A stretch of 64,000 nt of DNA. Source: Promicromonospora thailandica (GTDB taxonomy: Bacteria; Actinomycetota; Actinomycetes; Actinomycetales; Cellulomonadaceae). The notes beneath the pieces are model-generated. The model had not been told where the DNA came from. It did no database searches and was given only the letters and a program-made list of their open reading frames with translations. A program made the translations under genes and the position numbers. The DNA is taken from assembly GCF_024171955.1 (NCBI RefSeq), contig NZ_JAMTCS010000001.1, positions 1-64,000 of the forward strand, given 5' to 3'. Below, piece after piece: positions 10,682 through 57,922 of this stretch (the stretch's first letter is position 1; each line of letters starts with the position of its first letter).

Positions 10682-12159
10682 ACACCATCAGCGCGCACGC
10701 CTCCAACGACCCGACCGCGCAGGACCTGGGCGTCGACCCGCGGCTCTTCCTCGGCGGACGCCGGCAGCACGGGTCCACCGGGCAGACGATCGTCGTCGAG
10801 AACCCCGCCACGGGCACCGCCCTGACGGAGGTCGCGAGCGCCACGCCCGCCGACGCCCTCGCCGCCCTGGACGCGGCGTCCGCGGTGCAGGAGACCTGGG
10901 CCGCGACGCCGCCGCGCGAGCGCGGCGAGATCCTGCGCCGGGCGTACGAGATCCTGACCGACCGGGCGGAGGAGCTCGCCCGCATCATCACGCTCGAGAT
11001 GGGCAAGTCCCTCGAGGAGTCGCGGGGCGAGGTGGCCTACGGCGCCGACTACCTGCGCTGGTTCTCCGAGGAGGCCGTGCGCATCTCCGGCGAGTGGAAG
11101 GTCAACGCCGCGGGGACCGCCCGCGTGCTCACCATGCGCCAGCCCGTGGGCCCGTGCCTGCTCATCACGCCGTGGAACGCGCCCCTGGCCATGCCGGCCC
11201 GCAAGATCGGCCCCGCGATCGCCGCGGGCTGCACGATGATCCTCAAGCCGGCGGCCCAGACGCCGCTGACCGCGCTGTTCCTCGCGGAGGCGCTGGCCGA
11301 CGCCGGGCTGCCCGAGGGCGTGCTCAGCGTGCTGCCGACGTCCGACGCCGGCGGCCTCACCGACGCCCTCTTCGCCGACGACCGCATCCGCAAGGTGTCC
11401 TTCACCGGGTCCACCGAGGTGGGGCGCATGCTGCTGCGCAAGTCCGCCGACCACGTGCTGCGCACGTCCATGGAGCTCGGCGGCAACGCCCCGTTCATCG
11501 TGTGCTCCGATGCCGACGTGGACGCCGCCGTAGACGGCGCCATGCTCGCCAAGATCCGCAACAACGGCGAGGCCTGCGTGGCCGCCAACCGGTTCCTGGT
11601 GCACGCCGACGTCGCCGAGGAGTTCTCGGCGAAGTTCGCCGAGCGCATGCGCGCGCTGCGCACGGGCGACGGCAGCGAGCCGGGCGTGCAGGTGGGCCCG
11701 CTCATCGACGCCGCCCAGCGGGACAAGGTCGCCGGCCTCGTGGCCGACGCGATCGCGCAGGGCGGGCGCCTCGTCACCGGCGGCGCCTCCCCCGACGGCG
11801 CGGGCTACTTCTTCACGCCCACCGTCATCACGGACGTCCCGGCGTCGGCCCGGATCAACCGCGAGGAGGTGTTCGGCCCGGTCGCCCCGATCCGCGTCTT
11901 CCACGACGACGACGAGGCGGTCCGCCTCGCCAACGACACCGAGTACGGGCTGGTGGCCTACCTGTACACGCGCGACGTGAGCCGCGCCGTCCGCCTGTCC
12001 GAGCGGCTCCAGACCGGCATGGTGGGCCTGAACCGCGGGCTCGTCTCCGACCCGGCGGCCCCGTTCGGCGGCGTCAAGCAGTCGGGCATGGGCCGCGAGG
12101 GCGGCTCGGCCGGCATCGACGAGTACCTCGAGACGAAGTACGTGGCGCTCGCCGTGTGA
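10678..12159 (+). CDS. gabD: NAD(P)-dependent succinate-semialdehyde dehydrogenase-like aldehyde dehydrogenase
   Basis: 493 residues. The aldehyde dehydrogenase catalytic set is complete: N167 in TPWNAPL, E266 in MELGGNAP and nucleophile C300 in NNGEACVAANR. Binding-pocket sequence and length fit the SSADH/glutarate-semialdehyde group, which oxidises the semialdehyde to the dicarboxylic acid in the cytoplasm. It is coupled to the upstream fumarate-lyase homologue by an ATGA overlap, which argues that its in vivo substrate comes from that enzyme and not necessarily from the GABA shunt. The symbol is by family resemblance only. Confidence 0.8.
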   Translation: MNTISAHASNDPTAQDLGVDPRLFLGGRRQHGSTGQTIVVENPATGTALTEVASATPADALAALDAASAVQETWAATPPRERGEILRRAYEILTDRAEELARIITLEMGKSLEESRGEVAYGADYLRWFSEEAVRISGEWKVNAAGTARVLTMRQPVGPCLLITPWNAPLAMPARKIGPAIAAGCTMILKPAAQTPLTALFLAEALADAGLPEGVLSVLPTSDAGGLTDALFADDRIRKVSFTGSTEVGRMLLRKSADHVLRTSMELGGNAPFIVCSDADVDAAVDGAMLAKIRNNGEACVAANRFLVHADVAEEFSAKFAERMRALRTGDGSEPGVQVGPLIDAAQRDKVAGLVADAIAQGGRLVTGGASPDGAGYFFTPTVITDVPASARINREEVFGPVAPIRVFHDDDEAVRLANDTEYGLVAYLYTRDVSRAVRLSERLQTGMVGLNRGLVSDPAAPFGGVKQSGMGREGGSAGIDEYLETKYVALAV

Positions 12160-12187
12160 TCCTCCGGCGCGGGCGGGGCCCGCGGGG

Positions 12188-13069
12188 TCAGCCCCGCGCG
12201 GCCCCCGCCGCGGCGTCCGTCTCCGCGGCCCACGAGCCGAGGAGGCGCAGCCGTTCGGCCGACGGCGACCCCGGTTCGGCCGTGTAGACCAGCAGCACCT
12301 GGCCGGGTTCGGCGGTCAGCGCGAGCTCCTCGTAGGCCAGGGTGAGCTCGCCGACGACGGGGTGCCGGAACCGCTTGGTGCCGGCGCCGTGGATGCGTAC
12401 GTCGTGGGCCGCCCACAGCGTGCGGAACACCTCGCTGCGCGTCGAGAGCTCGCCGACGAGGTCCTGCAGGGCCTTGTCGTGCGGGTCGCGGCCCGCCTGG
12501 ACGCGCATCATGGCCGCGCACATGGCGGCGAACCGGTCTCAGTCCGGGTAGAAGTCGTGGGCGGCCGGGTCGAGGAACAGGAAGCGCGCGATGTTCGGCG
12601 TCCGGCCGCCCTGCCCGATCAGGGGCGAGTAGAACGCCCGGCCGAGCGCGTTGGCCGCGATCATGTCCTGCCGCTGGTCGCGGACCACGGCCACGGCGTC
12701 CCGCATCGCGTCGAGCGTCCACTGCAGGCCGGGCCGGGGCGCGCCCGCGCGGGTGGCCCGCCGCCGGCCGCGGCCGGACGACGGCACGCCGTCGGCGGCG
12801 CGCGCCAGGTCGAGCAGGTGGGCGTGCTCGGCGTCGTCGAGCCGCAGCGCCCGGGACAGCGCGTCCAGGACGGCCGCCGACGCGCCGCCCAGGGCGCCCC
12901 GCTCCAGCTTCGCGTAGTACTCCACGCTCACCCCGGCCAGCGCGGCCACCTCGCTGCGACGCAGACCCTGGACCCGGCGGTTCGACCCCGCGGGCAGCCC
13001 GGCCGCCTCCGGCGCCACGCGCGCCCGGCGGGTCATGAGGAACTCACGCACCTCGGCTCGGTTGTCCAT
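12188..13069 (-). pseudogene. XRE/MmyB-family regulator interrupted by an in-frame stop
   Basis: Translation from ATG 13069 gives a normal MmyB-type regulator: HTH LRRSEVAALAGVSVEYYAKLERG near residues 38-60, then FLFLDPAAHDFYPD. It meets TGA at 12539-12541 and continues in the same frame as DRFAAMCAAMM...TKRFRHPVVGELTLAYEEL to 12188. In homologues the position after FYPD is Trp (compare FVDW in the intact paralogue at 7506-8375), so one TGG to TGA change explains the stop. The rest of the frame is clean, so the lesion is recent, a sequencing error, or suppressed. It is divergent from the zinc alcohol dehydrogenase gene it would be expected to regulate. Confidence 0.85.
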
Positions 13070-13214
13070 GGATCCAGGCTACGGCGGGCGCCCGGGGCGG
13101 GAGGTGCCCTGGTGGTACACCCCACGCCAGGGACTCCCCCGCGGCCGGACGCCGCCCAAGACTGGACGAGCCGCGCCGTTCCGGGTGCGGCTCCCCGAGC
13201 AAGGAGTGAGACCC

Positions 13215-14237
13215 ATGCGTGGAGTTGTCATGCACGCCCCCGGCGACGTGCGCGTCGAGGAGCGCCCCGACGCGACGATCGTCGAGCCCACCGACGCCGT
13301 GATCCGGGTGACCGCGTCCTGCATCTGCGGGTCGGACCTGTGGGGCTACCGCGGCCCTGCGCCGCTGGCCGAGCCCCGGCCGATGGGGCACGAGTACGTG
13401 GGGGTCGTGGAGCAGGTGGGCGACGAGGTGCGCGACATCACGGTCGGCGACTACGTCGTCGGCTCCTTCGTCGCCTCCGACAACACGTGCGAGATCTGCC
13501 GGGCCGGCTACCAGTCGCGCTGCGTCCACCACGTGATGATGGGCACCGTGGGCACGCAGGCCGAGCTGGCCCGCATCCCGCACGCCGACGGCACCCTCGT
13601 GCCGACACCGGGCGTGCCCGACGCCGACCTCGTCCCCTCGCTGCTGGCCGCGTCCGACGTGCTGGGCACCGGCTGGTTCGCGGCTGTGGCCGCCGAGGCC
13701 GGCCCCGGCAGGACGATCGCGGTGGTCGGCGACGGCGCCGTGGGCCTGTCCGCGGTGCTCGCCGCCAGGCAGCTCGGCGCCGAACGGATCGTCCTGTTCA
13801 GCCGGCACCCCGAGCGCGCCGCCCTGGGCCGCAAGTTCGGCGCCACCGACGTGGTCGAGGAGCGCGGCGACGCCGGGGCGGCCCGCGTCAAGGAGCTGAC
13901 CGGCGGGTACGGCGCCCACGGCGTGGTCGAGGCCGTCGGTACCGACGAGGCGATGTCGCAGGCGATCCGCTCGGCGCGCCCCGGCGGGCACGTCGGGTTC
14001 GTCGGCCTGTCGCACGACGTGCACCTCGACGGCCTCGAGCTGTTCTACAGCACGGTGCACCTGCACGGCGGGCCCGCCCCCGTGCGCCGGTTCCTGCCCG
14101 AGCTGGTCCGCCTCATCTGGGACCGCACCATCGACCCGGGGCAGGTCTTCGACCTGACGCTCCCCCTGGAGCAGGCGGCCGACGGCTACCGCGCGATGGA
14201 CGAGCGGCGCGCCACCAAGGTGCTGCTCACGCCGTGA
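13215..14237 (+). CDS. Zinc-dependent alcohol dehydrogenase (MDR superfamily)
   Basis: 340 residues from ATG 13215, AAGGAG at 13201-13206. Catalytic zinc ligands are C38 (CGSD) and H59-E60 (MGHEYVG). The structural zinc lobe DNTCEICRAGYQSRC keeps C92, C95 and C103 but has Asp/Asn at the expected first cysteine. The Rossmann segment is VVGDGAVGLSAVLAARQLGA. The family oxidises alcohols or reduces aldehydes with NAD(P). The upstream divergent regulator gene is broken, so control of this gene may have been lost. The substrate cannot be read from sequence. Confidence 0.85.
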   Translation: MRGVVMHAPGDVRVEERPDATIVEPTDAVIRVTASCICGSDLWGYRGPAPLAEPRPMGHEYVGVVEQVGDEVRDITVGDYVVGSFVASDNTCEICRAGYQSRCVHHVMMGTVGTQAELARIPHADGTLVPTPGVPDADLVPSLLAASDVLGTGWFAAVAAEAGPGRTIAVVGDGAVGLSAVLAARQLGAERIVLFSRHPERAALGRKFGATDVVEERGDAGAARVKELTGGYGAHGVVEAVGTDEAMSQAIRSARPGGHVGFVGLSHDVHLDGLELFYSTVHLHGGPAPVRRFLPELVRLIWDRTIDPGQVFDLTLPLEQAADGYRAMDERRATKVLLTP

Positions 14238-14262
14238 CGCGGGCGGACATCGCGGCGGGCGC

Positions 14263-15537
14263 TCAGGAGGCCAGCGGGTCGCCTCCCGGCGGGAGGTTGG
14301 CCCGCTGGCCGGCCCGGTCCAGGGTGCGGTCCGGGAGCCAGATCGTGAACGTGCTGCCCCGGTCCCCGTGGTCGGCGTGGAGCAGGTGGCCGTCGTGGCT
14401 CTCGGCCACCTGGCGGGCGATGGCCAGGCCGAGGCCCGTACCGTCCGGTGCCTCACCGGGCCGGTCGTCCGCCCCGCCGTCCGGGCCCCGGTAGAACCGG
14501 TCGAAGATCCGGTCGCGGGCCTCGGGCGGGACGCCGGGACCCTCGTCGGCGACGGCGACCCAGGCCCACCCCTGCCGGCTGCCCACGCCCACCGTGACGG
14601 CGCTGCCCGCCGGGGCGAGCCGCACCGCGTTGGACAGCAGGTTGTCCAGCGCGCGAGCCAGCGCGTTCGCGTCGCCGTACGCGACCGGCCCGGGGTGGGC
14701 CCGCTCGGTGATGGACACGCCCCGCCGTCCGGCCACCGCCCGGTTCTCGCGCGCGGCGGCCGCCGCGAGCGCCGCGAGGTCCACCTCGCGGTCGGTGAAC
14801 GCCTCCGAGCGGAGGCGGGCGGTGGCCAGCAGGTCCTCCAGCAGGCGCGACATGCGGCCGGTCGCGGCGAGCACGACGGCGGTCGCCTCGGCCCGCTGCG
14901 CGCGGTCGGCCTGGTCGTCGGCGAGCACCGCCTCGACGTTGGCCTGCACCACCATGACGGGGTTGCGCAGCTCGTGGGAGACGTCCTCGATGAGCCGCCG
15001 CTCGGCGCTGAAGGCGCGGTCGAGGCGGTCGAGCATGCCGTCGATGGTGTCGGCGAGGGTGCGCAGCTCGTCGTGGGGTCCGGTGGCGCCGATGCGGCGG
15101 GAGAGGTCGGTCGCGCCGATCTCCTGGGCGGTGCGGGTGATCGCCTCGACGGGTCGCAGCGCACGCCCGGCCACCCACCAGCCGATCACCACGCTGAGCA
15201 GGAACATGATCCCGAGCGCCACCGCGGAGTAGTCGCGCAGGGTCTGCAGGGCGGTCCAGTTCACGGCGTGCTGCACGGTGTCGAGGTCGGCGGCCTGGAA
15301 CTGCTCGCCCGGCTTGTAGGCGATGCTGCCGTCGGGCTTCTTCTCGAACCGCTTGACGGTGACGGGGTCCAGGGGCGCGGCCACGACGGTGCTGGACAGC
15401 GCCAGGTACACGCCCGCGAGGATGAGCGCGGTGACGCCGAACAGGGTGGCGGAGTAGGTCAGCGCGAGCCGCATCCGGACGGTGCGTGCCCACCCCGGCA
15501 GCCGCACACGGCGCGGGGACGGGCCGGTGCGGGTCAT
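14263..15537 (-). CDS. Sensor histidine kinase (HAMP, HisKA, HATPase)
   Basis: 424 residues from ATG 15537, which overlaps the stop of the response regulator (ATGA). Two membrane segments (about 27-47 and 105-127) flank a short extracytoplasmic sensor of about 55 residues. HAMP follows (RALRPVEAITRTAQEIGATDLSRRI), then the H-box DVSHELRNPVMVV with phospho-acceptor H188. The ATP lid motifs are LDNLLSNAVR, DEGPGVPPEARDRIFDRFYRG and GTGLGLAIARQV. It autophosphorylates and passes phosphate to the coupled OmpR-type regulator. The signal is unknown; the small sensor loop is Lys-rich with no obvious binding domain. Confidence 0.92.
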   Translation of the reverse strand: MTRTGPSPRRVRLPGWARTVRMRLALTYSATLFGVTALILAGVYLALSSTVVAAPLDPVTVKRFEKKPDGSIAYKPGEQFQAADLDTVQHAVNWTALQTLRDYSAVALGIMFLLSVVIGWWVAGRALRPVEAITRTAQEIGATDLSRRIGATGPHDELRTLADTIDGMLDRLDRAFSAERRLIEDVSHELRNPVMVVQANVEAVLADDQADRAQRAEATAVVLAATGRMSRLLEDLLATARLRSEAFTDREVDLAALAAAAARENRAVAGRRGVSITERAHPGPVAYGDANALARALDNLLSNAVRLAPAGSAVTVGVGSRQGWAWVAVADEGPGVPPEARDRIFDRFYRGPDGGADDRPGEAPDGTGLGLAIARQVAESHDGHLLHADHGDRGSTFTIWLPDRTLDRAGQRANLPPGGDPLAS

Positions 15538-16253
15538 GCGAGCACGCCGCCGATGGGTGCGGGCAGCTCGCGCAGCCGGTAGCCCCGGCCGATGACGGTC
15601 TCCAGGGCAGGCTCCTCGTCGTCGACGGTGAGCTTGCGGCGCAGGGTGCCGACGGTGACGCGCACCGTCTGCGTGAACGGGTCGGCGTTCTCGTCCCACA
15701 CGTGCTCGAGCAGCTCCTCGGCGGGCACCACGTAGGCGGGCCGGCTCATGAGGTAGCGCAGCACGGCGAACTCCTTGCGGGTCAGGGCGAGCTCCCGCGC
15801 GCCGCGCCAGGCGAGCTGCCGGGCGGCGTCGAGCCGGATGGGGCCGTGCGTGAGCACGGCGGCGGCCACCTCGCGTGCCTCGCGGCGCAGCAGGGCGCGG
15901 ATGCGGGCGGACAGCTCGATGATCGCGAAGGGTTTGACGAGGTAGTCGTCGGCGCCCACGTCGAGGCCGGTCACCCGGTCGGTGAGGCGGCCGCGCGCGG
16001 TGAGCATGAGGATGCGCGGCGGGTCGCCGTCAGCGAGGGGCACCTGGCCGGCGCGGACGGCGCGGGTCAGGTCGAAGCCGGTGCCGTCGGGCAGGTTCAC
16101 GTCGAGCAGCACGAGGTCGTAGGGGCTCAGGGCCAGCTTGTCCCGCGCCTCGCCGACGGTGCGCGCGTGGTCGACGGCGTAGCCCTCCCTGCGCAGCGCG
16201 ACCTCCAGGGCGCTCACGAGCCCTGCCTCGTCCTCCACGATCAGCAGCCGCAC
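15534..16253 (-). CDS. OmpR/PhoB family response regulator
   Basis: 239 residues from GTG 16253. The receiver domain has D8-E9 (VEDE), phospho-acceptor D51 (LLDVNLPDG) and the conserved Lys in DYLVKPF; a winged-helix DNA-binding domain follows (LTRKEFAVLRYLMSRPAYVV, then TVRVTVGTLRRKL). It is the first gene of a two-gene operon with the kinase. It is divergent from the moxR-type operon across about 116 bp, so autoregulation or control of that operon is possible but not shown. Confidence 0.92.
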   Translation of the reverse strand: MRLLIVEDEAGLVSALEVALRREGYAVDHARTVGEARDKLALSPYDLVLLDVNLPDGTGFDLTRAVRAGQVPLADGDPPRILMLTARGRLTDRVTGLDVGADDYLVKPFAIIELSARIRALLRREAREVAAAVLTHGPIRLDAARQLAWRGARELALTRKEFAVLRYLMSRPAYVVPAEELLEHVWDENADPFTQTVRVTVGTLRRKLTVDDEEPALETVIGRGYRLRELPAPIGGVLA

Positions 16254-16369
16254 ACCAGAACCGTAACCGCCGAGGACCGGGACCGACAGGCCCTGCCGGC
16301 CGGGCGCTTTCGGTCGGCTTTCGTTCGGGTTTCCCGCAGTTTTCTCCCCTGTCCGGTGGAGTCGGTGCC

Positions 16370-17412
<1,043 letters not shown>

Positions 17413-49269: not shown

Positions 49270-50100
49270 CTACCCCTCGTAGAGCGCGAGGTACCGGGAA
49301 TACAGATCGTCGACAGACGTGCCCAGTGCTGCGGGCGTCACGATGTCGTGCCCGACGTTCGCGGCGGCAGGAATCACGTAAGCGCCCAGCGACGCGCCGG
49401 CGGCGACCGCGATCGCGGAGGGCACAGCAATGACCGACCGCGTGTCCACGGACTGCTCCCGCGCCGAGACGGCGACCGCCACCCGCAGCAGATCACCGTC
49501 GCCGGGCACCGGGCGGATCTCGGTCGCGATCCGCAGGTACTGCGCGAGCGCCGTGTACGAGTGCCCCCGCACATCGAACCTGTCGGGCAGCAGTCCCGCA
49601 CCGTACAGGACACGCATCGCGGCCACGGCGGCCGGCGGCACCCGGCGCGGATGCGGGCGGTAGAACGGAGCGAGGACCAGCAGGCGCCGAACACGACAGG
49701 CCGTGCGGGTCGCCAGCCAGGTGGCCAGCACCCCGCCGCCGGACACCCCGACGACACCGGCATCGGAGCCCAGTCGTGCGGTCACGGTCCATGCCTCGGC
49801 GGCATAGCGACGCAGGGCGCCGGGGACAACCCGGGCGTGCGCGCGCCGGGTGGTCAGCCCGTGCAGCGGCGCACGCGGGGCGAACACGTTGTACCCCAGG
49901 GCGAAGAATCGCTCGGCCAACGCTGCCACCTGTGTCGGCGTGTGGGTGTAGCCGTGCAGGACCAGCGCGGCCTTCGACCGAGGCTCCCCGTGCGACCACA
50001 GCCTGGTACCGGCGCCCCGCAGCACCGACGGGTCCGACGCGTCGGCCTCGACCATCGCCCGCGCGTGCGCCTCGGCGGCTGCGAAGCCCACGAGAGTCAC
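49270..50100 (-). CDS. Alpha/beta hydrolase of the SARP-linked operon
   Basis: 276 residues from GTG 50100, which overlaps the ligase stop (GTGA). Oxyanion motif LVLHGYTHTP (residues 46-55), nucleophile elbow G118-V-S120-G-G, and a late NVGHDIV His complete the triad. It is likely a carboxylesterase, thioesterase or lactonase-type enzyme. Being last in a peptide-ligase-hydrolase operon, it could release, hydrolyse or cyclise an acyl product made by the ligase; that is inference. Confidence 0.8.
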   Translation of the reverse strand: MTLVGFAAAEAHARAMVEADASDPSVLRGAGTRLWSHGEPRSKAALVLHGYTHTPTQVAALAERFFALGYNVFAPRAPLHGLTTRRAHARVVPGALRRYAAEAWTVTARLGSDAGVVGVSGGGVLATWLATRTACRVRRLLVLAPFYRPHPRRVPPAAVAAMRVLYGAGLLPDRFDVRGHSYTALAQYLRIATEIRPVPGDGDLLRVAVAVSAREQSVDTRSVIAVPSAIAVAAGASLGAYVIPAAANVGHDIVTPAALGTSVDDLYSRYLALYEG

Positions 50101-51521
50101 CGTGTCCCTGGCAGGTCCCGGTCGCTCGCTCCCGGCATCGGGCCACTGGTGTACCGGTGCTTGACGCCGCGTGGGAAGTACTCGGGATCGCCGGACCGCC
50201 TGAGGTCCACCTGAGGTGTCTGACCGGCCTCCGGGACGTAGTGCGCGAACTCGCTGTTGATCCTCAGGAGCTCCGTACGGATCGACTCGGCCACCAGCCG
50301 CTCGCGTTCCGCGGAGGGCTCCGCTCCGTCGGCCAGCTCCACAACCACCGTCAGCCGGCGGTCACGGTCGGTGTCCTCGACCGTGTCCAGCACGAACCGG
50401 CCGGTCGTCCAGTCGCTGACGGGTGCGCGCTCCAGACCGACGGTGACGTGCTCCGGGTAGATGTTGGCACCGAAGTACGAGACGGTGAACATGGACCGCC
50501 CGAAGACGTACACGAAGGGCAGCTCCGGTCCGGCACCGGGGTCGAACCCCGCGTCCTGGCACCGCCCGAGCAGCTCGTCGTAAGAGTAGAGACCGCCTTC
50601 GTCGGCGATGTGGTACCGCACGAGCGGAACGGTCCCGTCGGCGCTGAACACGAGCGTGCCGTCCGGCCCGGCCTCGAACTGGCGCGCGGCCGGGTCGTAC
50701 TGCAGCAGGGTCGGGAGGCGGGACTGGCCGAAGAGCGCCTCCGCGAAGCCGGGGCGTTCGGCCGCGAAGCGGCGGATCCGGACGCTGAGGGGGGTCTCGT
50801 TGGCCAGCACTCCGGCGTCCGCCGTCCCGTAGAGGGACGCGATGTCGGTCGCCGGGTCCTGGATGCCTGCCCGGTGGGCGACGAGGTCGCGCCACTGCTC
50901 GCTGAACACCTCGCCGGCCAGGACCAGCCTGACCCGGTGCCTCGGCCAGTCGACGCCGCGGGCCAGCCCGGCGTCGATCACGTTCTTCACGAACGGCGGG
51001 TAGCCCAGCAGGACCGTCTGGTCGTACTGGCCGGCCAGCTGGTCGACGACGCGGAGGATCTCGTCGACGTCGTTGCCCGGGGTCGCGAGGGTGATCGGGT
51101 AGCCCTTGGCCGACAGGTGGCGGCACGCCGTCGCGGTGTACATGCCTCCGACCCAGTTGCCGAGGGCGAAGCAGACGACGGCGAGCGTGCTACGGCGGGC
51201 GGCATCGAAGCCGTCGCGGAACACCTGCTCGAAGCGCTCCGCGACCGTGCGCTCGTCGAGGGCCGAGCGCGGCCAGACAGTCGGCGCGCCGGACGAGCCG
51301 GACGAGAGCGCGACGGCGTCGGCGTCGGCGAGCCGCCCGTAGCGGCAGCGGCCCGCGAGAGGGTACCGGTGGTGGTAGTTGTCCTTCGTCGTCAGGGGGA
51401 TCTGGGACGGGTCGCGGACCGACGACGGGTCCAGGCCCAGCTCCCGCAGGAATGTCAGGTACGCGGGTACGGTCTCGACCGCGTCGCGGAAGAGGGCCAC
51501 GACCGGGTCTGGGCGGCTCAC
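50097..51521 (-). CDS. PaaK/CapK-like AMP-forming acyl ligase
   Basis: 474 residues from GTG 51521. The nucleotide loop LSSGSSGAPTVWPRS is at about 72-86, then SLYGTADAGVLANETPL (A5-like, with YG-TAD) and GANIYPEHVTVGLERAPV, which corresponds to the lid hinge of PaaK-type ligases (GENIFP in phenylacetyl-CoA ligase). It would activate a carboxylic acid as an acyl-AMP, with CoA, an amine or a carrier as acceptor. No carrier-protein gene is visible nearby. Its GTG overlaps the TGA of the 49-codon ORF (51518-51521) and its own stop overlaps the hydrolase GTG, so the three genes are translationally coupled. Confidence 0.82.
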   Translation of the reverse strand: MSRPDPVVALFRDAVETVPAYLTFLRELGLDPSSVRDPSQIPLTTKDNYHHRYPLAGRCRYGRLADADAVALSSGSSGAPTVWPRSALDERTVAERFEQVFRDGFDAARRSTLAVVCFALGNWVGGMYTATACRHLSAKGYPITLATPGNDVDEILRVVDQLAGQYDQTVLLGYPPFVKNVIDAGLARGVDWPRHRVRLVLAGEVFSEQWRDLVAHRAGIQDPATDIASLYGTADAGVLANETPLSVRIRRFAAERPGFAEALFGQSRLPTLLQYDPAARQFEAGPDGTLVFSADGTVPLVRYHIADEGGLYSYDELLGRCQDAGFDPGAGPELPFVYVFGRSMFTVSYFGANIYPEHVTVGLERAPVSDWTTGRFVLDTVEDTDRDRRLTVVVELADGAEPSAERERLVAESIRTELLRINSEFAHYVPEAGQTPQVDLRRSGDPEYFPRGVKHRYTSGPMPGASDRDLPGTR

Positions 51522-51667
51522 GCCGGCACCACCTCCTGGCCGGTGACGTGGCGGCAGCCGGTGGGCAGCTCGTCCGGCGGGCGTGTCGCATCGGCGTCCA
51601 GGTGACGGGCCCTGTTCCCGCCGGCCGTCACCGAGGTGAGGACGGTGTACTGCACGAGTCGTTGCAT
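51518..51667 (-). CDS. 49-residue peptide heading the ligase-hydrolase operon
   Basis: Begins ATG 51667 with a strong AGGAG 6 nt upstream and ends in a TGA that overlaps the ligase GTG. GC at third codon positions is about 90%, as in real genes here. The peptide starts MQRLVQYTVLTSVTAGGNR, turns polar and Pro-rich, has a single Cys in the segment LPTGCRHV and ends EVVPA. There is no signal peptide or membrane segment. I recognise no family. A SARP-type triplet lies 64-91 bp upstream, so it is the first gene of the regulated transcript. Candidate roles: precursor peptide, small carrier or regulatory leader for the ligase. Confidence 0.6.
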   Translation of the reverse strand: MQRLVQYTVLTSVTAGGNRARHLDADATRPPDELPTGCRHVTGQEVVPA

Positions 51668-51730
51668 CGAGGCTCCTGTGATGAGAGGGGTGGCCCAGAC
51701 GGGGCGACACCCATGACACAGCAGGCCGGT

Positions 51731-51758
51731 CGACGCACGGTCGACATCACGTCGATGC
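51731..51758. promoter_or_regulatory. SARP-type triplet box 1 (peptide-ligase-hydrolase operon)
   Basis: GTCGAC (51731), GTCGAC (51742) and GTCGAT (51753), each 11 bp apart, 64 bp ahead of the 49-codon ORF. Direct repeats at helical-turn spacing are the known binding pattern of SARP proteins. Confidence 0.8.
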
Positions 51759-51906
51759 GGTCCGGCCATCGCCGGAGGTGCCGACAGCTCTGCGCACGAT
51801 CGGCACCTCCGGTCTCACACGACGGGCACGTCGGTGTCGTCGTCGTAGATCGGTGAGAAGGCGGTCTCCCGGTCCCCGCCGCTCTGGCGCAGGCCGTGGG
51901 CAGCGT

Positions 51907-51934
51907 GTCGACGTCGTGTCGACCGGACGTCGAT
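51907..51934. promoter_or_regulatory. SARP-type triplet box 2 (FAD oxidase)
   Basis: GTCGAC (51907), GTCGAC (51918) and GTCGAT (51929), 11 bp apart, 52 bp ahead of the FAD oxidase ATG. Boxes 1 and 2 share the 319-bp divergent promoter region. Confidence 0.82.
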
Positions 51935-51985
51935 ACGTGGGGTGGAAAGTCGGGAACGTTGTTCTCGAACGAAGAGGAGTACCCC

Positions 51986-53362
51986 ATGTCCACCAACCGC
52001 CTCGATGCCGCGACGCTGCGCGCGGAGCTCGACGGCAGCCTGTTCCTCCCCGGGGAGGACGGCTGGGACGAAGCACGTCAGGCCTGGCAGCTCACCGTCG
52101 ACCAGCGCCCCGAAGCGGTCGTGGTGGCAGCCTCCGTGCGTGACGTGGTCACCACCGTCAACGCCGCCCGCACCGCGGGCCTACGGGTGGCCGCTCAGTC
52201 GACCGGCCACAACGCCGGCCCCCTGGGGGCGCTCGCGGGCACGGTGCTCCTGCGCACCTCCGGGCTGACCGGCATCACCGTGGACCCCGCCGCGCGCACG
52301 GCCCGCGTGGAAGCGGGCGTCGTGTGGGGCGACGTGACCGCCGCCGCGGCCCCGTACGGCCTGGCGGGTCTCGCCGGTACGGCACCGGACGTCGGCGTGG
52401 TCGGCTACACGCTCGGCGGTGGCATGTCGTGGCTGGGACGCACCTACGGGGTCGCCGCCAACCACGTCGTGTCAGCCGACGTCGTGACCGCCGACGGCGT
52501 CCAGCGGCATGTCGACGCCCAGAACGAGCCCGACCTGTTCTGGGCGCTGCGCGGCGGTGGCGGCAGCTTCGCCGTCGTGACGGCCCTGGAGATCGGTCTG
52601 GTGCCGGTGCCCGACCTGCACGGCGGCGCCCTCTTCTTCCCTCTCGACCAGGCATCCGAGGTGCTGCAGAACTGGCAGCGATGGACGCGGACCGTTCCGG
52701 ACGCGATCACGTCGGTCGGCCGGCTCCTGCGTTTCCCGCCCCTGCCCGAGATCCCCGAGCCCGTGCGCGGGCAGTCCTTCGTCGTCGTCGAGCTGGTCTC
52801 GCTCCTGAGCCGGGAGGCGACGGACGAGGCGCTCGAGCCCCTGCGCGTCCTCGGCCCCGTGATGGACACCGTCCACCCGTCGGAGCCTGCCGAGCTGGCC
52901 GCCATCCACATGGATCCGCCGGCTCCGGTGCCGGGAACCGGGGACGGCTTCCTCCTGACCGACCTGCCGCTCGAAGCCCTGGACGCCTTCCTGTCGGTCG
53001 CGGGGCCGGGCGAAGACTTCGGGTTGCTGAGCGCGGAGATCCGCCACCTGGGCGGGGCCTTCTCTCCCGACACCACTCGGGGTGGCGTGGTGTCCGGGTT
53101 CGCCGCCGGGTACGCGATCTTCACCGCGACGATCACCCCGGACGAGACCGCCGTGAAGGCCACCCACATCGTCCTGGACCGACTGCGCGACACGCTCCGC
53201 CCGTGGACCGCACCGGTCTCGTACCTGAACTTCGCCGAGCGTCCCGGCGGTGCGCCGTTCGCGCACACGGCGGCGCTGCACCGCCTGCGGAGCATCAAGG
53301 CCCTCTACGACCCCGCAGACGTCATCCGCGCCAACCACCCGGTCAGCCCGGCCCAGGGCTGA
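51986..53362 (+). CDS. FAD-linked oxidase (BBE/6-hydroxynicotine oxidase-like, p-cresol methylhydroxylase fold)
   Basis: 458 residues from ATG 51986 (AGAGGAG upstream). FAD-binding domain: AAQSTGHNAGPLG with H75, the usual 8-alpha flavin-linking His, and VGYTLGGGMSWLGRTYG. The second flavin-linking Cys of bicovalent members should fall in the GTAPDVGV segment, but the position is Ala133, so the flavin is at most singly linked. The C-terminal berberine-bridge motif appears as LYDPADVIRANHPV. It oxidises an alcohol, amine or ring carbon with O2. It is divergent from the peptide-ligase operon and has its own SARP-type triplet. Confidence 0.88.
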   Translation: MSTNRLDAATLRAELDGSLFLPGEDGWDEARQAWQLTVDQRPEAVVVAASVRDVVTTVNAARTAGLRVAAQSTGHNAGPLGALAGTVLLRTSGLTGITVDPAARTARVEAGVVWGDVTAAAAPYGLAGLAGTAPDVGVVGYTLGGGMSWLGRTYGVAANHVVSADVVTADGVQRHVDAQNEPDLFWALRGGGGSFAVVTALEIGLVPVPDLHGGALFFPLDQASEVLQNWQRWTRTVPDAITSVGRLLRFPPLPEIPEPVRGQSFVVVELVSLLSREATDEALEPLRVLGPVMDTVHPSEPAELAAIHMDPPAPVPGTGDGFLLTDLPLEALDAFLSVAGPGEDFGLLSAEIRHLGGAFSPDTTRGGVVSGFAAGYAIFTATITPDETAVKATHIVLDRLRDTLRPWTAPVSYLNFAERPGGAPFAHTAALHRLRSIKALYDPADVIRANHPVSPAQG

Positions 53363-53455
53363 CCGGCCGGACTGCCTCGTCGATGCAGGGGCTCTCAGCG
53401 GGGTGACCGCATCCGGCGAGGCATGGGCCGACGGGTAAGGGATGACCTGTCGGCC

Positions 53456-53491
53456 CGGCGCCGGCCGGGCCGCACGGCCCGGCCGGCGCCG
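53456..53491. terminator. Bidirectional terminator between FAD oxidase and SRPBCC genes
   Basis: 16-17-bp perfect GC arms (53456-53472, 53475-53491) around CA, placed between two convergent stop codons. Confidence 0.7.
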
Positions 53492-53498
53492 ACGTGCG

Positions 53499-53972
53499 TC
53501 ACGAACGGCTGACGAGCGGCGCGTCCGCCGCGAAGAGCTCCTGGAACCGTCGGGCGTCCCGCTCCAGGGTCCGGGCCAGCACCCGGGACATCAGCGGGAA
53601 CAGGAGCCGCTGACCGAAGCCGCGTGCGGAGTACCGCAGCGTGAGGCAGACCACCGACCGACCGCTGGGACCGGTGGTCAGGCGACGAGAGCCCTCCACG
53701 TCGAGCCCTTCGACGGCGACCCAGCGGAACATGCCCCCGGTCTCCGAGGCCGTGACGGCCGTGACGGCGGTGACGGTGCGCAGCGTCGAGCCCATGGCGC
53801 GCATCGTCTCGTAGGTGATGGTTCCCTCGACCACCGTGCCGCGGTTCGACTGCCTCATCTCCACGACGCCGCCCCGCCACCGGGGATCGTGCGTGCAGTC
53901 GGCGAGAACCGCCCAGACCTCCGCGGCCGGGGCGTCGACGGTGGCCTGCGCTGACAGGGTGACGGTGGGCAT
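53499..53972 (-). CDS. SRPBCC (START-like) family protein
   Basis: 157 residues from ATG 53972 (GAGGAA upstream); the longer frame to 54245 is not coding-like. Typical SRPBCC start: VTLSAQATVDAPAAEVWAVLADCTHDPRWRGGVVEMRQ; then GTITYETM, FRWVAVEGLDVEGSRRLTT and the long C-terminal helix LARTLERDARRFQELF. The fold has a hydrophobic pocket used for lipid or polyketide-like ligands, sometimes as cyclase. A SARP-type box lies 55 bp upstream, so it belongs with the oxidase and ligase genes. Confidence 0.85.
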   Translation of the reverse strand: MPTVTLSAQATVDAPAAEVWAVLADCTHDPRWRGGVVEMRQSNRGTVVEGTITYETMRAMGSTLRTVTAVTAVTASETGGMFRWVAVEGLDVEGSRRLTTGPSGRSVVCLTLRYSARGFGQRLLFPLMSRVLARTLERDARRFQELFAADAPLVSRS

Positions 53973-54025
53973 GGTGTTCCTCGGTCTTTCGTCGGGATCA
54001 AGACGCCCGATCGTCGCCCGCCTGG

Positions 54026-54053
54026 ATCGACAGACGGTCGACATCCGGCGAAC
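54026..54053. promoter_or_regulatory. SARP-type box 3 (SRPBCC gene, possibly the SARP gene)
   Basis: ATCGAC (54026) and GTCGAC (54037) are 11 bp apart; the third position (54048) is degenerate, GCGAAC. It lies in the divergent SRPBCC/SARP promoter region. Confidence 0.65.
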
Positions 54054-54166
54054 GCCCGGAAACGAATTCGCCCCGCTCTTCCGTCGCTGCGCGCCGACGA
54101 GCGCTCGTATGCTCTTGGCGGGTCTGCCTGCGGGGCAGCGACCCGGAGGCAAGAAAGGTTCTCCCC

Positions 54167-57025
54167 ATGTCCGACGACATGACGTTCGCGCTGCTGGGCC
54201 CCGTCCGTATGTGGCGTGCCGGGACCGAGCTGCCGGCAGGCTCACCGCAGCAACGGGCCCTTGCCGCGATGCTGCTGCTGCACGAGGGCCGCGTCGTCGG
54301 CATCGACGAGATGGCCACCGCCCTGTGGGAGGACGAGCCGCCGCGCGGAGCCTTCGGCACCCTGCGCACCTATGTCTCCCGTCTGCGCCGGCTGCTGGAG
54401 GGCACCACCGCCACCATCGACACGGTCGGCGGAGGCTACGCGCTGCGCACGCCGCAGGAGTCCGTGGACGTCGCGCGGTTCGAGACCCTGCTACGCCGTG
54501 GCCGCGAGCTCGGACGGACCACCGACCTCACCGGCGCCGCGACCGTCCTCACGGAGGCCCTCGACCTCTGGCAGGGCGACGGGCTCGACGGAGTTCCCGG
54601 CGCCTACGCGGCCCACCAGCGGGTCAGGCTCCAGGAGGAACGGCTGGCAGCCAGGACGCTGCGCCTCGCCGCCCTGCTGGACACCGGGGGCTCGGTGGTC
54701 CCGGAGCTCACCACGCTGGTCGAGGCGCACCCGTACCGCGAGGAGCTGCGTGCCCTGCTGATGCGGGCCCTGTACCGCGACGGCCGCCAGGCCGACGCCA
54801 TCGACGCCTATCACACCGGCGCCCGCCTGCTCGGCGACGAGCTCGGTCTGGACCCCGGCCCGGCCCTGCGCGAGATGCATCAGCGCATCCTCGTCTCGGA
54901 CCCGACCCTCACCGTCACGCCACGCACCGAGACCAGCACGACCGTTCCGGACGGCTCGGCCCGGGCCGAGCAGACCCCCGTGCCTCACCCCGCGCAGCTC
55001 CCCGCCGACCAACGCGGCTTCGTCGGACGGCACCGCGAGCTCGCCTGGGCCGACGCGCTCCTCGACACGCGGGCGGCTCCGACCACGGCCGTCATCTCCG
55101 GGATGGGCGGCGTCGGCAAGAGCGCCCTGGCCGTCCACTGGGCACACCACAACGCGACCGCGTTCCCGGACGGCCAGCTCTACGTCGACCTGCGCGGCTT
55201 CGACCACACCCAGGCACCCGTGAAGCCTCACGACGCGCTCATCAGGCTGCTCGAGGCCTTGGGCATCGCCGGCCAGCACGTCCCGGACAGCCTCGACGCA
55301 CGCGCAGCGCTGTTCCGCTCCGCGCTGGCAGGCCGCCGGATGCTGGTGCTCCTCGACAACGCACGCGATGCCGACCAGGTGCGTCCCCTGCTTCCCGGCA
55401 CGGGAGACAGCCTCGCCCTGGTCACCAGCCGTCACCGGCTCTCGGCGCTGTGCGTCGCCGGCGCGGCGTCCATACACCTCGATGTCCTGCCCGACGACGA
55501 CGCCAAGGTGCTGCTCACCCACCGCGCGGGACCGGACCGGGCGGACGCCGACCCGGAGTCGCTCGACCGGATCGTCCGCGCGACGGGCAGGCTGCCGCTG
55601 GCACTGGCAGTCGTCGGAGCACGGCTCGCCGACTCCCCGGACATCCCGCTCCGCGTGATCGCCGACGAGCTGGGCAGCGCGCACACCGTCCTGGACTCGC
55701 TCGGCGATCCCGACCCGACCGTGGACGTCCGCGCGGTGCTCTCGTGGTCGTGCACCGCCCTGGACCCCGCGGCCCTGCACGCACTGCGCCAGCTCGCGGT
55801 GCTGCCGGAGGCGGCGTTCGACGTCCCGGCCGCCCGGTCCGCGGTCGGGCACCACGACCCGGTCCCCGTGGACGCGCTGGTCCGAGCCAGCCTGCTCGTG
55901 CGGACGCGCCCGGGCTGGTACGCCCTCCACGACCTGGTGCGCGCCTGCGCGGCCGAGTTCGCCGTCAAGCACCCCGAGGCACGACGAGAAGCGGTCGCCC
56001 GGGTGCTGGACCACTACCTCGGCTCCGCCCACCGGGCCACGATGCTCCTGGAGCCCCGCCGGGTACCTCTCGACCTGCCCGAGCCCACCATCGGCACGGA
56101 GGTCCTCCGCCACGCCGACGCGACCGCTGCGTTCGACTGGCTCGCGGGACACCGACGAACGTTGCGCGCGGCTGTCGACCTCGCGGTCACTGAGCGCTCG
56201 TACGGTGCGGCCTGGCAGCTCGCCTGGTGCCTGGCGGCCTACCTGCACCGCGCCGGGTACTGGTCGGACGCCGTGAACCTGTGGCAGGTCGCGCTCGGTG
56301 CCGCGGAACGCGACCAGAGCGTGATCGGGCAGGCGCGGACCCACCAGGGCCTGGGCGTCGCGCTCGGCATGAGCCACGGGCTGAGCGCCGCGGGGTTCCA
56401 CCCGCCATCTGCGGCGCAGGACGACACCCAGGCCGCAGCCTGTGCCCACGTCACCGAGGCGATCCGCCTGTACCTGTCGATCGGCATGCGGGCGGCCGCC
56501 GCCTGGGCGCTGGTGAGCCTGGCGTCCCTGCACGACTCGACCGCCGACCCGGACGCCGTCACCGACGCCCTGGAACGAGCCCGCGAGCTGTCCGACGAGC
56601 CCTCGTTGCAGGTGGCCGTGCTGAACAACCTCGCGGTGCTCCACGCCAGGCTCGGCGACGGGCCGCGCGCGGTCGCCGCGGCACGCGAGGTTCTCGACCT
56701 CATCCAGACCATCGGCGACACCTCGACCGGCGCCCACGCGACCGACACACTCGGCATGGCGCAGATGGCCGACGACGACCCCGGCGGCGCCACCACCTCG
56801 TTCCGGGCGGCCGCCCGCGCCTTCGAGGCGGCCGGCGACCCGATGAACCAGGGGGTCAGCCTCGCCAACCTGGGCGACGCGTACGTCGCAGCGGGTGACG
56901 CCGCCGCAGCCCAGGCCGCGCGGGCCGAGGCGCTCGCCGTCCTGGACGGCACCGGGCACCCTGTCTCGGACCGGCTGCGGGTGCTGCTCGGCCAGCCGGC
57001 AGAGATGACCGACGTCGACCGCTGA
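54167..57025 (+). CDS. SARP/AfsR-like regulator: winged helix, BTAD, NB-ARC, TPR-like
   Basis: 952 residues. An OmpR-type winged helix is at about 5-95 (FALLGPVRMWRAGTELPAGSPQQRALAAMLLL, LRTYVSRLRRLLEG). The bacterial transcriptional activation domain follows at about 100-245 (DVARFETLLRRGREL, HPYREELRALLMRALYRDGRQADAIDAYHTGARLLGDELGLDPGPALREMHQRIL). The NTPase domain has P-loop GMGGVGKS (312-319) and GRLPLALAVVGARLA. Helical repeats run from about 640 to the end. This is the large SARP architecture of AfsR, which activates secondary-metabolite promoters through 11-bp-spaced repeats. Boxes of exactly that spacing occur four times within 6 kb, so it is the likely cluster activator. Confidence 0.93.
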   Translation: MSDDMTFALLGPVRMWRAGTELPAGSPQQRALAAMLLLHEGRVVGIDEMATALWEDEPPRGAFGTLRTYVSRLRRLLEGTTATIDTVGGGYALRTPQESVDVARFETLLRRGRELGRTTDLTGAATVLTEALDLWQGDGLDGVPGAYAAHQRVRLQEERLAARTLRLAALLDTGGSVVPELTTLVEAHPYREELRALLMRALYRDGRQADAIDAYHTGARLLGDELGLDPGPALREMHQRILVSDPTLTVTPRTETSTTVPDGSARAEQTPVPHPAQLPADQRGFVGRHRELAWADALLDTRAAPTTAVISGMGGVGKSALAVHWAHHNATAFPDGQLYVDLRGFDHTQAPVKPHDALIRLLEALGIAGQHVPDSLDARAALFRSALAGRRMLVLLDNARDADQVRPLLPGTGDSLALVTSRHRLSALCVAGAASIHLDVLPDDDAKVLLTHRAGPDRADADPESLDRIVRATGRLPLALAVVGARLADSPDIPLRVIADELGSAHTVLDSLGDPDPTVDVRAVLSWSCTALDPAALHALRQLAVLPEAAFDVPAARSAVGHHDPVPVDALVRASLLVRTRPGWYALHDLVRACAAEFAVKHPEARREAVARVLDHYLGSAHRATMLLEPRRVPLDLPEPTIGTEVLRHADATAAFDWLAGHRRTLRAAVDLAVTERSYGAAWQLAWCLAAYLHRAGYWSDAVNLWQVALGAAERDQSVIGQARTHQGLGVALGMSHGLSAAGFHPPSAAQDDTQAAACAHVTEAIRLYLSIGMRAAAAWALVSLASLHDSTADPDAVTDALERARELSDEPSLQVAVLNNLAVLHARLGDGPRAVAAAREVLDLIQTIGDTSTGAHATDTLGMAQMADDDPGGATTSFRAAARAFEAAGDPMNQGVSLANLGDAYVAAGDAAAAQAARAEALAVLDGTGHPVSDRLRVLLGQPAEMTDVDR

Positions 57026-57129
57026 ACCCCGCCGGCGAGTCACGCCATCGCCCCGCGGCAGGCTCACGTGTCCGGGGTGCAGGACGCGGCGGGTTCCCGC
57101 GCGACAGCCGGCGCCCACGGGTCACAGCG

Positions 57130-57166
57130 GAGGTGCCCGCCCGGCGACGAGCCGGGCGGGCACCTC
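57130..57166. terminator. Bidirectional terminator between SARP and lipoprotein genes
   Basis: Perfect 15-bp arms (57130-57144, 57152-57166) with a 7-nt loop, in the 184-bp gap between convergent genes. Confidence 0.75.
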
Positions 57167-57209
57167 GATGCCTCTGAATCCCCGTCGGTCGGGGTCTATC
57201 GGGTAGGTG

Positions 57210-57767
57210 TCATTCGTCTCCGTTCGCCTTGGTGCCATCCGGCGCGGCGGTGAACCAGACGCCGCCGACCGCCTCGCCGTTGATCTGGCCCGGCTCGGTG
57301 TCCCCGCTGAAGCGGTACAGCGGCCAGCCGCCGAGCGTGACCTGCAGGCTGCCGTCGTCCCTGGTCGTGGTGCCGAGCAGCGCTTGGTCTATACCCGTGT
57401 AGACGATCTTGTTCCTGGTCAGTACCGGCGGCCAGGTCGTCGCGCAGTCCCCGTAGCAGGTGGTCGTCGACGGCGAGGCCGTGTCGTCGTCGAACCGGTA
57501 GAGCGTGAAGCCCTCGCCGTCGGCCACGACATGGCCCAGCTGCGGGTTCTGCACCACCTGGACGCCGGCCGGCCAGTAACCCCCTGAGGGGTTCGTCTCC
57601 GCGGGGGTCGACGCGTCGGCCGGTGCCCCGGGCTCCTCAGCCGCCGGCTGGGAAGCAGCCGTGTCCGACGGGACCACCGGTGCGGGGGCATTGACGGTGC
57701 AGCCGCTGAGCAGCAGACCGGCGACGACAGAGGCGGCCGCGAACGAGGCGCGAACGGTGCGAGTCAC
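57210..57767 (-). CDS. Lipoprotein with tandem Yx(FWY)xxD-type repeats
   Basis: 185 residues from GTG 57767 (AAGGAG 9 nt upstream), giving a compact lipoprotein signal ending LLLSGC. An in-frame ATG at 57830, also with AGGAGG, adds 21 basic residues and is the alternative. After a Pro/Ala/Glu linker come two repeats of the secreted Yx(FWY)xxD family: GEGFTLYRFDDDT..TTTCYGDCATTWPPVL and GGWPLYRFSGDTEPGQINGEAVGGVWF. The CYGDC pair may form a disulfide. Related proteins occur with redox or iron systems, but function is unknown. A SARP-type triplet lies upstream, so it is probably co-regulated with the cluster. Confidence 0.82.
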   Translation of the reverse strand: MTRTVRASFAAASVVAGLLLSGCTVNAPAPVVPSDTAASQPAAEEPGAPADASTPAETNPSGGYWPAGVQVVQNPQLGHVVADGEGFTLYRFDDDTASPSTTTCYGDCATTWPPVLTRNKIVYTGIDQALLGTTTRDDGSLQVTLGGWPLYRFSGDTEPGQINGEAVGGVWFTAAPDGTKANGDE

Positions 57768-57894
57768 TTTCGGATACTCCTTCACGGTACGAGGGGGAAG
57801 GCGACGTCGGGCCGGCACCGAGCTGAGCATGATGTCCTCCTGGGGTGGATGGGGCCCCGCCGGTCGGCGGGACGACCCATCCGACCCCTCACAC

Positions 57895-57922
57895 ATCGAC
57901 ACCAGATCGACGTACCGTCGAT
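57895..57922. promoter_or_regulatory. SARP-type triplet box 4 (lipoprotein gene)
   Basis: ATCGAC (57895), ATCGAC (57906) and GTCGAT (57917), 11 bp apart, 65 bp ahead of the upstream ATG at 57830. That is the same distance as box 1 from its ORF. Confidence 0.78.

Follow-up and report, generated by a model that had tools for sequence, protein, structure and literature searches.

A rare triple-repeat box marks a putative SARP regulon and a peptide gene family at two loci of Promicromonospora thailandica

The window analysed here, the first 64,000 nucleotides of contig NZ_JAMTCS010000001.1 of Promicromonospora thailandica, contains an AfsR-like SARP (antibiotic regulatory protein) gene among four repeat boxes, each ahead of a gene or operon. 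The features are as follows.

49270–50100, minus strand: alpha/beta hydrolase, the last gene of the peptide operon, with a GTGA overlap with the ligase stop
50097–51521, minus strand: PaaK-like adenylating ligase, with a GTG start overlapping the peptide stop (GTGA)
51518–51667, minus strand: 49-aa peptide gene, one of four family copies in the genome
51713–51718, minus strand: TGTCAT, the predicted −10 hexamer for the peptide operon
51729–51756, minus strand: box 1, strict triplet ahead of the peptide operon
51907–51934, plus strand: box 2, strict triplet ahead of the FAD oxidase
51945–51950, plus strand: GAAAGT, the predicted −10 hexamer for the FAD oxidase gene
51986–53362, plus strand: FAD oxidase, with mitomycin radical oxidase and EncM as its nearest relatives of solved structure
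53499–53972, minus strand: SRPBCC protein (Polyketide_cyc2, from Pfam)
54010–54015, minus strand: GACGAT, the predicted −10 hexamer for the SRPBCC gene
54026–54053, minus strand: box 4; in the SRPBCC direction, units 2 and 3 are perfect and the outermost is poor (GGCGAA)
54167–57025, plus strand: large SARP regulator (Trans_reg_C, BTAD, NB-ARC, TPR)
57210–57830, minus strand: SCO0930-like lipoprotein, taken to start at the upstream ATG (GTG at 57767 could also serve as the start)
57879–57884, minus strand: TCGGAT, the predicted −10 hexamer for the lipoprotein gene
57895–57922, minus strand: box 3, strict triplet ahead of the lipoprotein gene

The peptide, ligase and hydrolase genes were read as one coupled operon because a GTGA overlap occurs at each junction. 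The ligase is a weak PaaK relative with adenylation-type motifs visible by eye, the FAD oxidase matched the solved structures of mitomycin radical oxidase (E 1.6e-78) and EncM (E 1.6e-53), and the SCO0930-type match of the lipoprotein fell below the NCBIfam cutoff. The types of these three proteins suggest that the window genes may serve a metabolite that is either a small molecule or derived from a peptide and that undergoes redox handling, and the regulon is probably concerned with making or processing a small metabolite. The boundary of the cluster of about 8.5 kb (49270–57830) proposed in the first-pass annotation is putative. In the large SARP, an OmpR-type DNA-binding domain (PF00486, 34.9 bits) is followed by BTAD (PF03704, 135.1 bits), both over cutoff, and then by C-terminal NB-ARC (PF00931, 34.1 bits, over cutoff) and TPR parts (models below cutoff only), the layout of an AfsR-type, or large, SARP. 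Chains of AfsR in the PDB were its best solved-structure match, aligning to residues 5–942; against the AfsR equivalog model (NF053617) it scored 528 bits, short of the cutoff of 1430.

A pattern scan of the window recovered boxes 1 to 3 as perfect RTCGAY-N5-RTCGAY-N5-RTCGAY triplets at 11-bp steps. These are the triplets of the first-pass annotation, with box 1 moved two bases to the left (from 51731–51758), and the degenerate copy that it listed was recovered as well. Nothing else in the window reached 15 of 18 matching letters save shifted registers of the four boxes, in agreement with the earlier statement that the window held no further triplet. The distances from box edge to start codon (61 bp for the peptide gene, 51 bp for the FAD oxidase, 64 bp for the lipoprotein from its upstream ATG and 53 bp for the SRPBCC gene) fall at 51–64 bp for all four boxes, within the 50–95 bp first proposed. 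Between boxes, the spacers vary while the units stay constant, and the 11-bp step is that of SARP operators, which are direct repeats 11 or 22 bp apart. In the stretch between the divergent boxes 1 and 2 (51772–51906), a GC-rich hairpin is visible by eye at 51772–51812; just before it on the minus strand, a short open tail ending in DDDTDVPVV-stop resembles the end of a lost gene, and a Pfam scan of 26 of its residues gave no match.

Across the genome (5,380,599 bases in 24 contigs), the scan that the first-pass annotation had proposed as a check found only five strict NTCGAY triplets, three in the window and two at 628 and 636 kb, all in these two loci ahead of genes. In a GC-rich genome where TCGA is common, such triplets could be chance or repeat debris, and 13 of 58 related genomes do hold one strict place each (14 of 59 with this genome counted). 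The reversed pattern occurred in 3 of the 59 genomes and nowhere in this one, an imperfect control because AGCT and TCGA differ in frequency, and the spacing was therefore varied instead: with gaps of 2–10 on both sides, 16 places were found over 81 spacing pairs, 5 of them at the 5/5 spacing and 11 over the other 80. Allowing up to two mismatches gave 14 places, of which nine were non-strict: two are shifted registers of strict boxes (51896 and 635986), two are one site in two registers (626319 and 626330), one is a further place at 626894, one lies upstream of another FAD oxidase gene, found on contig C4, and the remaining three (C1:280788, C3:223946 and C5:18264) were taken for chance. Box 4, with three mismatches, lies outside this list.

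The first-pass annotation had described a local regulon. It is not only local, because the two strict boxes at 628 and 636 kb, and degenerate ones with them, precede genes paralogous to those for the peptide and the hydrolase in the window. The box at 635975 is followed by a peptide copy and then a hydrolase 58% identical to that of the window (overlapping by TTGA if the hydrolase starts at TTG); the box at 628301 by a peptide copy fused to an apparent hydrolase remnant, with a pyridine nucleotide-disulphide oxidoreductase downstream; and the degenerate box at 626319 by a peptide copy overlapping (ATGA) a glycosyltransferase gene that, by eye, is apparently broken off. This last copy was found because its degenerate box flagged the place, and the rare box has thus acted as a genome-wide address, leading to a gene group about 575 kb away and to a peptide paralogue. 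The box at 626894 is without a clear gene, and a fifth peptide behind it was not counted, the peptide profile not having listed one. The second locus is partly decayed. Similar GntR/FCD-type regulators, one near a second SARP (C1:674812–675459, minus strand) and one beside the 636-kb box (about 636052–636700, minus strand), suggest that parts of the contig end are duplicated. A long frame in the same region (C1:628310–633922, plus strand, 1870 aa) has an opening (WRTSRHS...ACVQA) similar to those of two frames of locus L040 (568–5061, minus strand, 1497 aa; 12076–16485, plus strand, 1469 aa); the former L040 frame carries a C-terminal papain-fold toxin 1 domain (PF15644, over cutoff), the latter had no Pfam match, and the three frames are probably polymorphic toxins used between bacteria.

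When eight promoters were aligned on the 3′ edge of the box (the four of the window, those at 628 and 636 kb, that on contig C4 and one from the congener G006), T stood at +16 in all eight and A at +15 in six. T is likewise found at +16 of the degenerate boxes at 626894 and 626319, and of box 2 in the reverse direction, but 626330, the other register of the 626319 site, has C; at the three places taken for chance, read in both directions as a control, T stood at +16 in one case out of six. In 20,000 shuffles, an invariant A/T column never arose for sets of 8 or 10 promoters, sets that include related promoters. For the four window promoters alone, such a column appeared among 50 in 1106 of 20,000 shuffles, so the window alone would not carry the claim about geometry; T exactly at +16 arose for these four in 15 of 20,000. 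The hexamers at +11 to +16 (the four listed above together with TCAGAT, TTTCCT, GAGGAT, AACGAT, TCATCT and TTGGCT) are, as predicted −10 elements, poor ones, as expected for activator-dependent promoters. In SARP operators the 3′ repeat stands 8 bp from the −10 element; the predicted hexamers would lie at this distance if the repeat is counted as TCGAYNN, and transcription starts are predicted at 51706 (minus strand), 51957 (plus strand), 54003 (minus strand) and 57872 (minus strand).

A search for doublets with T at +16 gave 10 matches in the genome, all in the two loci and some of them the same box in the other direction or register; the pattern misses promoters without G at the variable place (that on C4) or with a poor proximal unit (626319). 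In G006 it gave three matches, two of them in the box of the FAD oxidase gene; the sole match outside that box (C1:3651019–3651051, minus strand) is a possible target or chance. The number of strict triplets expected per genome from frequencies in the window is 0.07, a crude figure because the same arithmetic gives about 8 doublet-plus-T places, none of which was found outside the two loci. Genome-wide rarity, the spacing control and the confinement of all 10 doublet-plus-T matches, together with units that are kept while spacers differ, leave chance or repeat debris with almost no probability as the origin of the boxes, and we rejected it.

Box 4 was read as the promoter of the SRPBCC gene because only that way are its proximal units perfect and is GACGAT in place. 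The first-pass annotation had likewise set it ahead of that gene; toward the SARP it is wrongly built, with a poor proximal unit (the nearest unit is without its T) and C at +16, which disfavours autoregulation of the SARP through this box.

Beyond the two loci, the box recurs where a FAD oxidase gene adjoins a SARP gene. In G006, a FAD oxidase 69% identical to that of the window has a strict box 52 bp before its start and is convergent with a SARP, and on contig C4 of this genome a second FAD–SARP pair has the variant box GTCAAC-N5-GTCAAC-N5-ATCGAC 54 bp before the FAD gene. A box was thus present in three of three FAD genes with an adjacent SARP (scores of 18, 18 and 16 of 18), the pairs being few and related, and absent from three of three FAD genes at 73–76% identity (one in G006, two in G011) with no SARP match in the 20 kb around them; the best scores in the 200 bp upstream of these three genes (12, 11 and 11 of 18) were at the random level. 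A wider search found 31 SARP places in 29 of 394 class genomes, and a FAD gene stood beside a SARP in only 2 of 30 compared class loci, both in this genome.

That the boxes would serve as SARP operators is well supported by their step, their place before a −10-like hexamer and before genes, and their recurrence beside a SARP in another species. Since TCGA is palindromic, the orientation of the reader is hidden, and another winged-helix activator or repressor could read the triplets, with the SARP neighbourhood coincidental; the 11-bp step, the place before a −10-like hexamer and the co-occurrence with SARPs make this improbable. The first-pass annotation spoke of one SARP gene, and the window SARP is favoured as the activator by its position, but two more SARPs of this genome, at 677 kb (65% identical) and on contig C4 (44%), have the same recognition-helix letters and make the assignment uncertain. 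GTLRTYVSRLR is common to four SARPs, those of the window, 677 kb, C4 and G006; a further SARP of this genome has AAVRTFVADLR, and two on contig C10 differ again. At C10:253553–260298, two large SARP-like regulators, each of about 1,100 aa, are neighbours in divergent orientation. In the remaining 28 class loci, the helix reads RTYASRLRK in 20 and RTYVSRLR, with different flanking letters, in 3, and the other 5 did not match the search motif, so the V of the helix is not unique to box-bearing SARPs.

The three SARPs sharing a helix mean that the acting one cannot be named from sequence, and a paralogue (677 kb or C4), or several SARPs, might be the main activator, with the window SARP having another job. 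The variant box at the C4 FAD gene, which lies beside one such SARP, and the unsuitability of box 4 as a promoter of the window SARP both point that way; the window SARP, however, sits among four boxes and the 677-kb SARP has none nearby (best score 14 of 18 within 20 kb), and we regard a paralogue as main activator as rather unlikely.

The reading that we consider probable is that an AfsR-type SARP activator, most likely that at 54167–57025, uses the boxes as its operators on weak promoters, and that its regulon extends to 626–636 kb. Units 2 and 3, which cover the −35 region, would each be occupied by a SARP protomer, the pair recruiting RNA polymerase in the manner of AfsR, and unit 1 would hold a further protomer. 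In the window, the activator would act on the peptide–ligase–hydrolase operon and on the genes for the FAD oxidase, the SRPBCC protein and the lipoprotein, and boxes of the same kind would carry the regulon to the second locus. The sequence itself shows the boxes, their rarity in the genome, their constant distance to a hexamer ending in T, their recurrence beside SARP–FAD pairs and the paralogous peptides; binding, activation, the acting SARP and the product are inferred. If the hexamer occupies −12 to −7, the T of unit 2 falls at −38 and that of unit 3 at −27, the positions read by R92 of AfsR, in a numbering of our own that rests on a predicted start; unit 1 would then be an additional repeat on the upstream side. 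In a study of AfsR (PMC10936776), change of T-38 or the matching T-27 abolishes binding.

All four genomic copies of the peptide family lie behind a box; in three of them the stop overlaps the following gene (NTGA), and the fourth is fused to the hydrolase remnant. The window peptide had no Pfam or NCBIfam match. A profile built from the four peptides refound its own sources at E 2.4e-21 to 2.8e-30 and gave nothing convincing in 219 other family genomes (best E 0.001 among the matches listed); something at E ≤0.1 appeared in 114 of the 220 family genomes, mostly as partial matches inside longer frames, and such weak matches were read as noise. In each of the six pairs of copies, differences are most frequent at the third codon position (the window copy and the 636-kb copy, for instance, differ at 6 first, 14 second and 18 third positions), a pattern that agrees with selection on the frame. 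Nonsynonymous changes are nevertheless more numerous than synonymous ones in every pair (for example, 17 versus 11), so any constraint is loose.

A SARP-driven promoter-plus-precursor cassette, in which peptides of 49–65 aa, induced via the triple RTCGAY boxes, form a new RiPP-like class translationally coupled to interchangeable enzymes (a PaaK-like ligase with a hydrolase, a hydrolase alone or a glycosyltransferase) and an adenylating enzyme would activate the peptide or attach it to a second molecule, is a tentative proposal that we hold to be doubtful. The window peptide matched no RiPP precursor family in Pfam or NCBIfam, the only families matched by its neighbours are general ones (oxidase, ligase and hydrolase), and a match to HaaT falls on the SARP, far below cutoff. 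The peptide may instead be a translational leader that moves with the promoter and couples the next gene, without a product of its own, a reading that we place close to an even prospect: the NTGA overlaps with three different next genes, the excess of nonsynonymous changes and the lack of a recognised RiPP enzyme speak for it, and the third-position differences and the motifs kept in both halves of the peptide speak against it.

Conservation of the whole cluster was not found in other genomes. The window SARP at E ≤1e-200 (a strict limit, with the best three candidates scored per genome) was seen in 1 of 221 family genomes and the hydrolase at E ≤1e-25 in 1 of 394 class genomes, in both cases this one; the ligase at E ≤1e-40 was seen in 10 of 394, and the nine other copies, in loci of about 3.4–4.4 kb, had no strict triplet and no loose peptide motif match. 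A related-loci search with the window SARP gave two uninformative loci (36 and 39% identical), and 11 plasmid records all fell below 60% identity. No description of the cluster was among the open-access literature matches listed.

What is new here is a peptide family in which each copy lies behind a box, in a predicted SARP-type regulon, and a shared peptide gene before different enzymes may point to an unrecognised natural product. One paper (PMC12224297) proposes that regulators can serve as beacons to gene clusters that present software overlooks; what is seen here looks like such a case, outside Streptomyces and with base-level predictions. Compared with known systems, the box 2 enzyme has its nearest solved relatives in mitomycin radical oxidase and EncM, although the genes of the mitomycin and enterocin systems were not seen in the window region studied. 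Like RiPP precursor-plus-enzyme operons, the peptide operon couples a short peptide gene, with several paralogues, to candidate modifying enzymes; unlike them, the peptide and its neighbours have no RiPP precursor or tailoring model above cutoff. The window SARP shares with AfsR of Streptomyces coelicolor the Trans_reg_C, BTAD, NB-ARC, TPR order, a full-length structure match and, at the afsS promoter, 11-bp repeats, and it keeps AfsR residues R87, T88, S91, R92 and R94; it differs in its helix (LAAVRTYASRLRK in AfsR versus FGTLRTYVSRLRR), in scoring far below the AfsR model cutoff and in its sites, AfsR using two repeats of a different sequence, CGTT(T/C)ATCGNN. The sites of DnrI, ActII-ORF4, VlmI and FdmR1 have TCGAG-type repeats and lie in Streptomyces antibiotic clusters, whereas here the units are RTCGAY with no known antibiotic cluster. 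Three-repeat sites are reported for these four regulators in PMC10972967, and in having three direct repeats upstream of their targets they resemble the boxes described here.
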